Shown: piece by piece, positions 1,059-63,941 of the stretch
Position numbering within the stretch: the stretch's first letter is position 1
Layout of the letters: every line of letters begins with the position of its first letter
NCBI GenBank assembly: GCA_013298775.1
Contig: JAAFIV010000001.1
Location: 124,001 to 188,000 of the forward strand
Direction of reading: 5' to 3'
DNA: 64,000 bases
From: Ignavibacteria bacterium
GTDB lineage: Bacteria; Bacteroidota; Ignavibacteria; Kapaibacteriales; UBA4661
The notes under the pieces: generated by a model
What the model was told of the DNA's origin: nothing
Databases searched by the model: none
Seen by the model: only the letters and a program-made list of their open reading frames with translations
Position numbers and translations under genes: made by a program

Positions 1059-1228
1059 CACATGTCTCTTTGTACACGACAGAATCTCTTGAAAGCTCGC
1101 AACCATTAGGCTTTAGTGGGACAGACATTCTTGTCTGTATTTGCCGCCTAAATCCCGCATCAACACTCATAGACAAGAATGTCTGTGCCACTACTAAAGA
1201 AATTTTGTCGTGTACTCAACACATATCC
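1059..1228. repeat. family B inverted-repeat element with degraded 9-bp TSD
   Basis: The element spans about 1068-1219 (152 bp). Its left end is CTTTGTACACGAC and its right end is GTCGTGTAC followed by diverged bases. Flanking 9-mers CACATGTCT (1059-1067) and CACATATCC (1220-1228) match at 7 of 9 positions, both differences being transitions, as expected of an old target duplication. The interior carries two copies of the palindromic CACAGACATTCTTGTCTGTG core in inverted order. It lies between the secreted-protein gene start (1035) and the FAH gene stop (1233). No coding content. Confidence 0.8.
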
Positions 1229-3123: not shown

Positions 3124-3312
3124 GAATTGAGGTAACTTGGTCATGCGCACAAAATACTGTCGCATTCGCCCCCTTGATAAAGGGGGAACGGGGGATTAAG
3201 GGTTTAATACCGCTTCAAATCACTCGTTTCACGTGGCAAATCCCCCGTTCCCCCTTTATCAAGGGGGCTAATGAGTAAAATTGCCACAAAACCTGACCAA
3301 TTACGAATTGAG
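3124..3312. mobile_element. family C MITE-like element with 8-bp TSD GAATTGAG
   Basis: Element 3132-3304 (173 bp) is flanked by exact 8-bp direct repeats GAATTGAG at 3124-3131 and 3305-3312. Its ends are GTAACTTGGTCATG and the complement of GTAATTGGTCAGGT. The interior is a long inverted repeat built on CCCCCTTGATAAAGGGGG and AACGGGGGATT. It lies between the isomerase start (3095) and the PBP4 stop (3325). No open frame. The same end type carries different interiors at 20018 and 53875. Confidence 0.88.
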
Positions 3313-6018: not shown

Positions 6019-6026
6019 GTCTTAGG
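5997..6026. repeat. 15-bp tandem duplication next to family A element
   Basis: Two perfect copies of TTGTATAGTCTTAGG (5997-6011, 6012-6026). The second copy runs into the first five bases of the family A element at 6022, so the junction itself was duplicated, perhaps by slippage after insertion. Confidence 0.75.
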
Positions 6027-6150
6027 ACTTTCGCAAATGGCGCAGACAGGAGTGTCTGCGCTACCACGTGAGGCAGATTTTACATGTCTTCGGTAGCACA
6101 GACACTCTTGTCTGTGCCACACAACGAACATTTTGCGAAAGTCCTAAGTC
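6019..6150. mobile_element. family A MITE-like element, 126 bp, 3-bp TSD GTC
   Basis: Element 6022-6147 has perfect 16-bp terminal inverted repeats (TTAGGACTTTCGCAAA and complement) and is flanked by GTC at 6019-6021 and 6148-6150. Two palindromic cores lie inside: GCGCAGACAGGAGTGTCTGCGC and GCACAGACACTCTTGTCTGTGCC in opposite order. An ATG at 6084 inside the element opens a frame that reads in phase into the chemoreceptor gene (peptide [11 protein letters not shown]); I regard that as fortuitous. Other copies are at 26777 and 63653. Confidence 0.88.
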
Positions 6151-14338: not shown

Positions 14339-14577
14339 AATCAAAGCAACGATAAGTGAATATCCTGCGACACAACGAGATAGAACAAATCAACGGGAGC
14401 GAAGAACATATATTTCTTAATGAATACACGCAAGCCGTTGTATTACCTTATTTTAGCACTATTTACTGTGAATACCGTATAAGTTTTTATGGAGGTCTCA
14501 AGTCAAAATACAAAACTTATATTATCGCGCAAGGCGAACTTTCGCCCAGCTTGGGTTAGCCCAGCTTTGGTGAGAAC
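14339..14577. other. intergenic region upstream of the OmpA-like gene
   Basis: AT-rich; must contain the promoter for the minus-strand OmpA-like gene. A small GC hairpin (CCCAGCTTGGGTTAGCCCAGCTTTGG near 14547-14570) is visible. No gene or RNA recognised. Confidence 0.4.
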
Positions 14578-14609
14578 GTGAGACTCTCAATACAAATTGA
14601 GAGCCTCAC
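14578..14609. repeat. family E 32-bp palindrome
   Basis: GTGAGACTCTCA ... TGAGAGCCTCAC around a short AT centre. It lies 18 bp downstream of the stop of the large secreted protein on the minus strand, so in RNA it would form a 3'-end hairpin. Confidence 0.85.
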
Positions 14610-20009: not shown

Positions 20010-20179
20010 ATTTCAGGGTAACTGGTCAGGTTTTTGAACGCAGATTGCCATGATTTCCATGATGAAGAGGATTTCAGAGAAGAATATTCCTTCTTCTCTC
20101 CAGTCTTCATCTGCGAGAATCGTGGAAATCATGGGAATCTGTGTCCCCAAAATTACGACCTGAACAGGTACATTTCAGG
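20010..20179. mobile_element. family C MITE-like element with 8-bp TSD ATTTCAGG
   Basis: Element 20018-20171 (154 bp) lies between exact repeats ATTTCAGG (20010-20017, 20172-20179). Ends are GTAACTGGTCAGGT and the complement of GTACCTGTTCAGGT. The interior is an imperfect inverted repeat of the GCAGATTGCCATGATTTCC / GGAAATCATGGGAATCTG type, unrelated to the interiors at 3132 and 53875. The right TSD copy contains the TGA stop of the flippase gene (20175-20177), so insertion hit the exact gene end without changing the protein. Confidence 0.87.
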
Positions 20180-26773: not shown

Positions 26774-26905
26774 ACATTAGGACTTTCGCAAATGGCGCAG
26801 ACAGGAGTGTCTGCGCTACTACTTGATGTAGATTTTACGCGTCTTTGGTAGCACGGACACTTTTGTCTGTGCCACAAAACGAGCATTTTGCGAAAGTCTT
26901 AAACA
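26774..26905. mobile_element. family A MITE-like element, 126 bp, 3-bp TSD ACA
   Basis: Element 26777-26902, exactly 126 bp, with ends TTAGGACTTTCGCAAA and the complement of TTAAGACTTTCGCAAA. It is flanked by ACA at 26774-26776 and 26903-26905. Same orientation and interior order as the copy at 6022. It lies in the divergent gap between tadA and the flavoprotein gene, 219 bp upstream of the latter. Confidence 0.88.
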
Positions 26906-32970: not shown

Positions 32971-33066
32971 TATAGGACTTTCGCCAACTTCACAGGCAAG
33001 AATGCCTGTGCCACTATAAATCGTATAAATAAGCGAGCTTTAGTGGCACAGACATTCTTGTCTGTG
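32971..33066. repeat. diverged family A/B-like repeat
   Basis: Begins TATAGGACTTTCGCCAA, close to the family A end. Two CACAGGCAAGAATGCCTGTG / CACAGACATTCTTGTCTGTG palindromes follow in inverted order. No matching right terminus, so truncated. Lies between lon and the DUF2461 gene. Confidence 0.65.
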
Positions 33067-33140
33067 TTCTTCTCAAGCACATTTGGGGGAAACCCTTATA
33101 CCTCAACAATACAAAAAAAATCAAACCATAATATTTCCCA

Positions 33141-38751: not shown

Positions 38752-39774
38752 ATGTTTTTAGATAGAGCGGTCATCAGCATTGCCTCTGGCAATGGCGGTA
38801 ATGGAATTATTCACTGGCGGCGGGAGAAATTCGCTCCCAAGGGCGGTCCCGACGGCGGTAATGGCGGACGCGGCGGCGATATTATTTTTGTTGCGAATCC
38901 GAATATGTCCACCTTGCTTGATTTTCGCTATAAACAGCATTACCAAGCCGCACACGGCAAGCCAGGTGGTGGTGCGAACTGGACAGGCAAAAGTGGGAAA
39001 GACACCGTCATTCAGGTTCCTTGCGGCACGATTATCCACGACGCAGAGACAAACGACGTTCTCGCCGACCTCACCGAAGCTGGGCAGGAAGTGGTACTGG
39101 CTGCAGGCGGACGCGGCGGACGCGGCAATTCAGAATTTGCTACCTCCATCAACCAAGCTCCGCGCTATGCCGAAGAAGGCAAGCCGGGCGAAGAAAAAAG
39201 ATTGGCATTAGAATTGAAGCTCATTGCTGATATAGGCTTAGTTGGATTTCCGAATGCGGGAAAATCTACCTTGATTTCCTCCATTTCTGCGGCAAAGCCG
39301 AAAATTGCGGATTATCCCTTTACAACGCTTGTTCCAAACCTAGGAATTGTCTCGCTTTCAGAGGATTCGCACCGACAATCGTTGGAAAGTTTTTGCGTGG
39401 CAGATATTCCGGGCTTAATCGAAGGAGCGCATACGGGAAAAGGCTTGGGATTCCAATTTTTGCGCCATGTTGAGCGGACGCAGGTTCTCGTGTTTTTGCT
39501 CGACCCACTTTCGGAAATTCCGCCCAAAGACCAATTCAAACTCTTGCGCAAAGAGCTGAAATTATTCAACAAAGAACTCGACACAAAAGAGCGTATTATC
39601 TGCTTTACCAAGATGGACGCGCTTACGGACGACGATAAAACCACGTTCCGCAAAACAAAACTTCGTGGTGAAGCCGCTGCGCACTGCATTTCGGGCGTTT
39701 CGGGCGAAGGCTTGGAAACACTGAAACGTGCTATGTGGAATGCCTTGCAACGCGCACGGAATCTTGAGTTGTGA
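38752..39774 (+). CDS. obg: Obg family GTPase
   Basis: Essential ribosome-associated GTPase (also called cgtA/obgE) assisting 50S maturation and stress control. 340 residues: Obg glycine-rich fold 1-158 (NGGNGIIHWRREKFAPKGGPDGGNGGRGGD, GKPGGGANWTGKSGKD, GGRGGRGNSEF), then the G domain: G1 GFPNAGKST, G2 YPFTTLVPNLG, G3 DIPGLIEGAHTGKGLG, G4 TKMD, G5 ISG. It lacks the C-terminal OCT domain, as in many Gram-negatives. The stop is followed directly by a family E palindrome. Confidence 0.96.
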   Translation: MFLDRAVISIASGNGGNGIIHWRREKFAPKGGPDGGNGGRGGDIIFVANPNMSTLLDFRYKQHYQAAHGKPGGGANWTGKSGKDTVIQVPCGTIIHDAETNDVLADLTEAGQEVVLAAGGRGGRGNSEFATSINQAPRYAEEGKPGEEKRLALELKLIADIGLVGFPNAGKSTLISSISAAKPKIADYPFTTLVPNLGIVSLSEDSHRQSLESFCVADIPGLIEGAHTGKGLGFQFLRHVERTQVLVFLLDPLSEIPPKDQFKLLRKELKLFNKELDTKERIICFTKMDALTDDDKTTFRKTKLRGEAAAHCISGVSGEGLETLKRAMWNALQRARNLEL

Positions 39775-39782
39775 AATACCCT

Positions 39783-39856
39783 GTGAGGCTCTCAATTCCT
39801 ATTGAGGGTCTCACTACGCGCTCTGCTACTCCAGCGCAAGTGCATGAGAGCCTCAC
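39783..39856. repeat. family E palindrome plus half copy
   Basis: Full 32-bp unit at 39783-39814 (GTGAGGCTCTCA ... TGAGGGTCTCAC) and half unit GAGAGCCTCAC at 39846-39856. It starts 9 bp after the obg stop and causes a spurious in-frame extension of the next gene. Confidence 0.8.
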
Positions 39857-46829: not shown

Positions 46830-46886
46830 GGGGGAAACTTTCGGAGTGAAGTCTTTGACTAGCAAAGTGAGTCTTTGGCTGGTAAA

Positions 46887-46918
46887 GTGAGACCCTCAAT
46901 AAGAATTGAGAGCCTCAC
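46887..46918. repeat. family E 32-bp palindrome
   Basis: GTGAGACCCTCA ... TGAGAGCCTCAC in the gap between the RsmB-like gene stop (46932) and the OstA-like gene. A partial unit (GTGAGTCTTTGG) lies just upstream at about 46867. On the minus strand it forms a hairpin 14 bp past the RsmB-like stop. Confidence 0.85.
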
Positions 46919-53851: not shown

Positions 53852-54153
53852 ACAAAGTACCATAAAAAATCTTCGTAACTGGTCAGGTATCTTCTCGCCC
53901 AAGCGGCTGAGGAGCGCAGAAACGCTGCCGTCCGGCGAGTTGGTCGCTTGCACAACACTCGCCGGACGGCTACTGCTCTTATGATAACAGCCGCCCGACG
54001 GGAAGACCTGACCAGTGACAAATCTTCAACAGTGGCACAGACATTCTTGTCTGTGAGTGTTGGTACGGGGTTCAAGTAACAAACACAGACAAGGAGTCCC
54101 AAGCCACTGGCACGCGGTTCTATGCGCTCTGAGAGGGTTTTGCTTGGTATTTA
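53852..54153. mobile_element. family B element interrupted by a family C element
   Basis: After the nested element (53875-54019) and one TSD copy are removed, the remaining about 149 bp follow the family B layout. Left end is CAAAGTACCATAAAAAATCTTC. Then comes AACAGTGGCACAGACATTCTTGTCTGTGAGTG with the inverted core. The right end is GAGGGTTTTGCTTGGTA, a worn GAGGTTTTGTCGTGTA. Lies between the ahcY terminator and the secF terminator. Confidence 0.65.
53867..54027. mobile_element. family C MITE-like element with 8-bp TSD AAATCTTC
   Basis: Element 53875-54019 (145 bp) between exact AAATCTTC copies (53867-53874, 54020-54027). Ends are GTAACTGGTCAGGT and the complement of GTCACTGGTCAGGT. The interior has GC-rich GCTGCCGTCCGGCGAG and CTCGCCGGACGGCTACTG arms plus TTATGATAACAGCCGCCCGACGGG, closely related to the interior at 45166. 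Confidence 0.88.
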
Positions 54154-61135: not shown

Positions 61136-61174
61136 GTAGGAAGAATAGTGAAATGATTGATGAAGTGTATGGAT

Positions 61175-61263
61175 GTAAGGCTCTCACTTCCCAGTGAGGG
61201 TCTCACTTTCGGCAAAGTATCGTGGTCAAAGTGAGAGCCTTTGGTAAGAATTGATACCCTCAC
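61175..61263. repeat. two family E palindromes
   Basis: First unit 61175-61206 (GTAAGGCTCTCA ... TGAGGGTCTCAC), second 61231-61263 (GTGAGAGCCTTT ... GATACCCTCAC, less perfect). They lie between the lipoprotein gene start and the TPR kinase stop, the only place in the window with two full units. Confidence 0.78.
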
Positions 61264-63649: not shown

Positions 63650-63941
63650 ACGATACAACTTTCGCAAAATGCTCGTTTTGTAGCACAGACAAGAGTGTCT
63701 GTGCTACCGAAGACACATAAAATCTGCATCAATTGGTAGCGCAGACCTTTGTACACGACAAAATTTCTTCAGCAGTGGCACAGACATTCTTGTCTGTGAG
63801 TGTTGGTGCGGGATTCAGGTAAGAAACACAGACAGAAAGTCTCAAGCCACTGAAGCCTGATTTTACGAGCTTTTCAGAGGTTTTGTCGTGTACAAAGAGC
63901 GCAGACACTCCTGTTTGCGCCATTTACGAAAGTCCTAAACG
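63650..63941. mobile_element. family A element interrupted by a family B element, 3-bp TSD ACG
   Basis: Family A ends at 63653 (ATACAACTTTCGCAAAATG, worn) and 63938 (TTTACGAAAGTCCTAA), flanked by ACG at 63650-63652 and 63939-63941. The span is 286 bp; subtracting the nested family B (151 bp) and one 9-bp TSD leaves exactly 126 bp. It begins 150 bp upstream of the TPR kinase start. Confidence 0.88.
63738..63906. mobile_element. family B MITE-like element, 151 bp, 9-bp TSD AGCGCAGAC
   Basis: Element 63747-63897 has a perfect 17-bp terminal inverted repeat (CTTTGTACACGACAAAA and complement) and lies between identical AGCGCAGAC copies (63738-63746, 63898-63906), which are part of the disrupted family A core. 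The cleanest copy in the window. The interior holds CACAGACATTCTTGTCTGTG and inverted partner (with mismatches). No open frame worth calling. Confidence 0.92.

Follow-up and report, generated by a model that had tools for sequence, protein, structure and literature searches.

A MITE inserted within a MITE

The locus at positions 63650-63941 of the window (the whole stretch of DNA analyzed, 64,000 nucleotides) is made up of a MITE of one family, here called A, interrupted by a MITE of a second family, B. Both elements carry hairpins that are putatively of the REP type. The features are, from left to right:

63650..63652: ACG, left copy of the 3-bp target duplication of A
63653..63938, minus strand: outer MITE, family A, interrupted, 286 bp (126 bp minus the insert)
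63653..63668, plus strand: left terminal inverted repeat of outer A, decayed, ATACAACTTTCGCAAA
63684..63703, plus strand: A hairpin, putatively REP-type, intact, CACAGACA-AGAG-TGTCTGTG
63738..63746: left copy of the 9-bp target duplication AGCGCAGAC, within the A hairpin stem
63747..63897, minus strand (with respect to our consensus of B): inner MITE of family B, 151 bp
63747..63763, plus strand: B terminal inverted repeat CTTTGTACACGACAAAA, with the same ends on the IS4-family element of locus L084
63779..63798, plus strand: B hairpin 1, CACAGACA-TTCT-TGTCTGTG
63827..63846, minus strand: B hairpin 2, variant, CACAGACAGAAAGTCTCAAG
63881..63897, minus strand: B terminal inverted repeat, other end, TTTTGTCGTGTACAAAG
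63898..63906: right copy of the 9-bp target duplication AGCGCAGAC
63898..63919, plus strand: right part of the A hairpin (putatively REP-type) split by B
63923..63938, minus strand: right terminal inverted repeat of outer A, TTTACGAAAGTCCTAA
63939..63941: ACG, right copy of the 3-bp target duplication of A

A preliminary description of this DNA had proposed an inner 151-bp element with perfect ends and identical 9-bp flanks, these flanks being part of an outer element, and our analysis agrees with it to the base. The ends CTTTGTACACGACAAAA and TTTTGTCGTGTACAAAG are perfect 17-bp inverted repeats, and the left copy of AGCGCAGAC lies within an A hairpin stem. Removing B and one 9-mer leaves exactly 126 bp, the length of the intact A copies starting at 6022 and 26777, as had also been described; the emptied element is identical to the copy at 6022-6147 in 113/126 positions (90%) and to that at 26777-26902 in 112/126. 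This exact empty form supports the proposed order of events: the locus is a MITE-in-MITE insertion, A before B. The claim of an outer ACG duplication stood with one qualification: both flanks are present, and because the left end is decayed (ATACAACTTTCGCAAA vs TTAGGACTTTCGCAAA, 4 mismatches) its support comes from the right end and the family consensus.

The genome to which the window belongs (G000; 5.19 Mb, 95 contigs, 99% complete) contains many uninterrupted A copies, which are natural empty sites, and copies elsewhere in it are also about 126 bp long. No orthologous site without the 160 bp was found in any strain or species, synteny being broken beside the locus; in the relative G005 the reductase gene to the right is conserved and the left side is not syntenic. 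A candidate cross-species empty site of an A copy (L050 vs L191) was rejected, as it proved to be another repeat. It is extremely improbable that the nesting reflects recombination or an assembly chimera, with no two transpositions behind it: hairpin sequence common to A and B could indeed recombine or be mis-assembled, in an assembly of this many contigs, but the 9-bp duplication is exact and in register around an empty form of exactly the family length, the contig is long (265 kb), and the same arrangement recurs independently with differing duplications (GTCTGCGCT, GTCTGCTCT and AGCGCAGAC).

Families A and B

Four further copies lie in the window:

1068..1219 (right boundary approximate), plus strand: diverged B copy
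6022..6147, plus strand: intact A copy, GTC duplication
26777..26902, plus strand: intact A copy, ACA duplication
32971..33080 (boundaries approximate), plus strand: A-type left end with B-like hairpins inside, a probable hybrid, decayed

Both families are short, multicopy and non-coding, with terminal inverted repeats and target duplications, which are the characters of MITEs. That both had moved as discrete units, as first suggested, is borne out by their characteristic duplications, of 3 bp in A and 9 bp in B. The terminal ends of A are NTAGGACTTTCGCAAA (the A-end sequence is also given as TAGGACTTTCGCAAA). Identical 3-bp flanks were present at the predicted boundary in 29 of 50 A copies with paired ends, with 0.8 expected by chance, and in at most 2 when the boundaries were shifted. 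We found no autonomous A element: no transposase lay between A ends within the ~1.9 kb searched at 20 single A ends, and there was none among the matches listed in a one-mismatch pattern search.

Family B is present throughout G000, where 40 candidates were scored and where its end pattern occurred 69 times, with no occurrence in the reversed control. Full copies were nearly all 150-152 bp. Across 41 elements (40 B copies and the insertion sequence described below), the 9-bp flanks differed by no more than one mismatch in 30, and in 20 of these they were perfect; random 9-mer pairs agree to within one mismatch in 0.02% of cases. Further B copies had 8-9-bp duplications at all seven paired places in G000, and at 13 of the 19 B places fetched from G005. 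The 41 sites outside hairpins gave the target consensus T-G-N7-C-A, with A/T-rich arms.

The window contains a second nested insertion, at 53875-54019: a MITE with GTAACTGGTCAGGT ends and an 8-bp duplication, AAATCTTC, whose host is apparently a decayed B element (right part at about 54020-54150). Separately, the sampled genome has four or more copies of a long inverted repeat, CCCCCTTGATAAAGGGGGAACGGGGGATT, one of them at 3163-3273 of the window.

An IS4-family partner of B

A DDE_Tnp_1 family search identified a 354-aa frame on contig C14; the corresponding IS element (L084:1324-2502, 1,179 bp) is bounded by CTATGTACACGACAAAA and TTTTGTCGTGTACAAAG and flanked by the duplication GGTACAGAC. 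Its transposase scored 203 bits on NCBIfam transpos_IS4_2 (NF033591; cut-off 152) and has Y249-R252-E256-K263, which matches the Y(2)R(3)E(6)K motif of the IS4 family. The candidate catalytic residues D93, D158 and E256, assigned by eye, have spacings of 64 and 97, the second just short of the reference D(60-110)D(100-150)E. A target duplication near one helix turn is a criterion of the IS4 family, and the IS and most B copies have 9 bp. Another genome has an 86% identical transposase enclosed by the same ends, which are 1,187 bp from each other. The named genomes with the closest relatives of the transposase are both MAGs, one of Candidatus Kapaibacterium and one of Ignavibacteria, and the host is therefore probably from that part of Bacteroidota. 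The IS10 subgroup of the IS4 family is characterized by lengths of 1200-1350 bp, CT ends and 9-bp repeats (PMC2266710); by its CT ends and 9-bp repeats the element would belong to the IS10-like group, its length of 1,179 bp falling slightly short.

The 17-bp ends are all that B and this IS have in common; the interiors are unlike, that of B being no deletion of the IS. From these ends we infer that B most likely owes its movement to an IS4-family DDE transposase acting in trans. The IS for its part interrupts a hairpin of a third MITE (C), in the phase that prevails among the B insertions in hairpins.

B insertions in hairpins

The insertion of B into A recurs. Further B copies lie in A-like hairpin elements at L010, L022, L025 and L036, with differing duplications; another (L019) is within a hairpin pair of the A kind, and one (L261) is in a hairpin at another phase. 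Our first list of B copies came from a query that included A flank and favoured B-in-A cases, and the list from the end pattern was used in its place; the copy counts in the hairpin-targeting comparison were compiled by hand. CAGACA hairpins host 7 of the 18 B copies with both ends exact, 6 of them in one phase, where the intergenic background predicts 0.7 (P about 2e-6). The hairpin stem, however, reads T-R-N7-Y-A, and 13% of the intergenic sites that fit the target consensus are in hairpins. Conditioned on the consensus, 2.4 of 18 were expected against the 7 seen (P 0.006), and among all G000 B copies with duplications 8 were in hairpins against 4.9 expected (P 0.10). The 13 B insertions of G005 all lay outside REP hairpins. 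A much stronger REP targeting, at P 1e-12, was rejected as naive, the restriction to intergenic consensus sites leaving P 0.006-0.10.

Since the stem fits the ordinary target T-G-N7-C-A, the enrichment of B in A-type hairpins is probably largely passive. We consider it rather unlikely that the B transposase actively recognises REP hairpins, by structure or sequence, and that A elements are its true preferred targets. Such recognition would account for the excess over the intergenic background and its one prevailing phase, shared by the autonomous IS, and it has a published precedent in ISRm22, an IS4-family element inserted exclusively in REPs (PMC1525189); but the excess shrinks once the consensus is taken into account, and none of the insertions in G005 is in a REP. 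A mostly passive preference, with possibly some active part, fits the counts best.

The hairpins as probable REP-type repeats

The hairpin CAGACA-N3-5-TGTCTG occurred 97 times in 464 kb sampled from G000 and once in the reversed control, and is also present in the relatives G001, G005, G006 and G007. The hairpin core is a high-copy palindrome arranged in inverted pairs, as REPs and REPINs often are. The foot of the stem is GTAG in A and GTGG in B.

In three of the relatives (G005, G006 and G007), CAGACA hairpins flank a tyrosine transposase gene of RAYT-like type located within recG (loci L217, L212 and L223). The insert is in frame in each complete gene: G005 and G006 have an open frame from end to end, and the G007 contig begins near the insert. 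At the same position, recG of G001-G004 has just a linker of 36-41 residues and no transposase, and that of G000 has a different short insert without the hairpin. REP_Tyr_transpos (NF047646) was the best family of the recG transposase, with E 1.9e-22 and 79.7 bits against a cut-off of 80; Y1_Tnp was over its cut-off. REPs within DNA repair genes are already known (PMC3733652). A protein search of G000 yielded no homologue of the recG transposase. This genome has two more distant RAYT-like genes, neither with CAGACA hairpins beside it; one of the two could in principle act on these hairpins.

From the RAYT flanks of the relatives we infer that the hairpins in A and B, including those of G000, are probably REP-type repeats. 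The alternative, that they are ordinary parts of MITEs, such as transcription terminators, alike by convergence and no REPs, appears unlikely. Hairpins can act as RNA signals, B RNA folds into a very stable structure (-57.6 kcal/mol, z -7.3), and no transposase flanked by CAGACA hairpins was found in G000. Convergence fits poorly, however, with the hairpins flanking a mobile REP-type transposase inside recG in three species, and with the close similarity of whole cores, unpaired spacer included, under different MITE ends (below).

Another hairpin repeat, GTGAGRCTCTCA...TGAGAGCCTCAC, occurs in the window at 1957-2000, 14566-14609, 39771-39814, 46875-46918 and 61163-61206, and hairpins like it lie on either side of a RAYT-like pseudogene (G000:C1:198447, L215). 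In G001, a RAYT-like domain (L213, 1191-1448 and 1501-1689) with CAAGGGAGCATGCTCCCTTG hairpins nearby is in frame in a methylase-like ORF.

Similar hairpin cores under unrelated MITE ends

At least four unrelated kinds of MITE ends, with 3-bp, 9-bp, 8-bp and TA duplications, enclose hairpin pairs; for C, E, P and F the lengths were read by eye from a few copies. B ends with the 9-bp duplication, C ends (GGTACTAAATGATTTCGGTTGGAAA) with an 8-bp duplication (ATTTGAAC in L158) and E ends (TAGACATTATACAGATTA) with TA on the flanks all surround a 76-bp core made up of two hairpins and the spacer between them. With the unpaired spacer counted, core identity across these three end types is about 90-96%. 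The E cores of L162 and L167 are 96% identical to the B core of L036, including a paired double variant, and are thus closer to it than B cores are to one another (median 83%). In A, with its 3-bp duplication, the hairpins are similar and the spacer is a different one; CAGACA hairpins likewise lie within the P ends of G005 and the Q ends of G007. Conversely, A ends in relatives enclose other hairpins: CAAGGGG...CCCCTTG in G007, TGGAGTGCGGAAT in G005 and TCATTCCGAC in G001. Among hairpin clusters, 70 of 98 had no known end type (decayed copies, unknown ends or free REPs). In the broad inverted-repeat scan, N runs swamped one stretch of G005, and the smaller clusters were usable.

The core may be transferred between shells by gene conversion, by template switching at hairpins or by RAYT insertion. 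One E-ended element (L148:10549-10875) has two tandem hairpin cores, which fits recombination or slippage. Several unrelated cores lie within elements that have GTAACTGGTCAGGT ends and ~8-bp duplications, in three species (G000, G005 and G007; window 20018-20171, and L163, L164, L167, L174, L194, L200 and L202), and elements with ACTCACCTTACGCACA ends and ~5-bp duplications share a CCCTCTCCCAGAGGGAGAGG core (L149, L151, L154, L162 and L166).

A model for the locus and its implications

The whole is very probably explained as follows. The 126-bp non-autonomous MITE A inserted first, with a 3-bp duplication, and the 151-bp MITE B later entered one of its hairpin stems with a 9-bp duplication. 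B would have been mobilised in trans by an IS4-family DDE transposase, of which G000 has one autonomous copy with the same ends. The point of insertion would be in a stem largely because the stem reads as the target and intergenic DNA is rich in such stems, and the REP-type hairpins would now be carried as passengers within MITE shells.

Nesting of MITEs is in standard use for dating, and the nested insertion as such is ordinary in kind. The preliminary description had not foreseen the REP-type hairpin common to A and B, the link between B and an IS4-family IS, or the recurrence of B-in-A. The new part is the REP-type core common to several MITE families, which hints that a third kind of selfish repeat, otherwise stranded, is carried inside them; a claim that this is a rule needs whole-genome typing. 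A broader reading, which we hold tentatively and judge somewhat less probable than its opposite, is that REP pairs are exchangeable passengers in the genus, their core moving among the shells of at least four unrelated DDE transposases. If true, a REP family persists and spreads in a genome without its own tyrosine transposase. It is believed that REP populations rely on a resident RAYT; one carried by DDE-driven MITEs would be an exception to this dependence. Clustering MITEs by core would merge families with unrelated transposases, and clustering them by ends would merge unrelated cores.

Comparison with known systems

The L084 element resembles the IS4 family, in particular its IS10-like subgroup (De Palmenaer et al. 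2008, PMC2266710), in its YREK motif, single ORF, CT ends and 9-bp duplications. It differs in its length of 1,179 bp, slightly below the 1,200-1,350 bp of IS10, and in having 97 residues between the second D and the E, where the family reference has 100-150.

In being DDE elements found at a fixed phase in a palindromic intergenic repeat, B and its IS are like the REP-targeting ISs (Tobes and Pareja 2006, PMC1525189), notably ISRm22. Every copy of ISRm22, however, is in REPs, with 6-bp repeats and insertion at the palindrome axis (PMC1525189), whereas about one fifth of the duplication-bearing insertions of B and the IS are in REPs, with 9-bp repeats and insertion in the stem, and are mostly accounted for by the general target consensus.

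A and B are like other bacterial MITEs (reviewed in PMC10969869) in being short and non-coding and in having target duplications and ends similar to those of ISs. The modular combining of ends and contents is similar to that of mosaic TIME elements (PMC4133298); however, these enclose genes between two MITEs, while here a single small hairpin core is found under unrelated ends, a recurrence of which we found no report in the literature searched.

Finally, the inverted pairs of short palindromes in high copy number are like REPINs and BIMEs, and, as in REPIN/RAYT systems, related hairpins flank a RAYT-like gene and GTAG precedes the stem in A (PMC3116915, PMC2817692, PMC3733652). Unlike those systems, a matching RAYT was not found in the window's genome, and, unlike in REPINs and BIMEs, the hairpin pair is enclosed by DDE-type terminal inverted repeats with target duplications.
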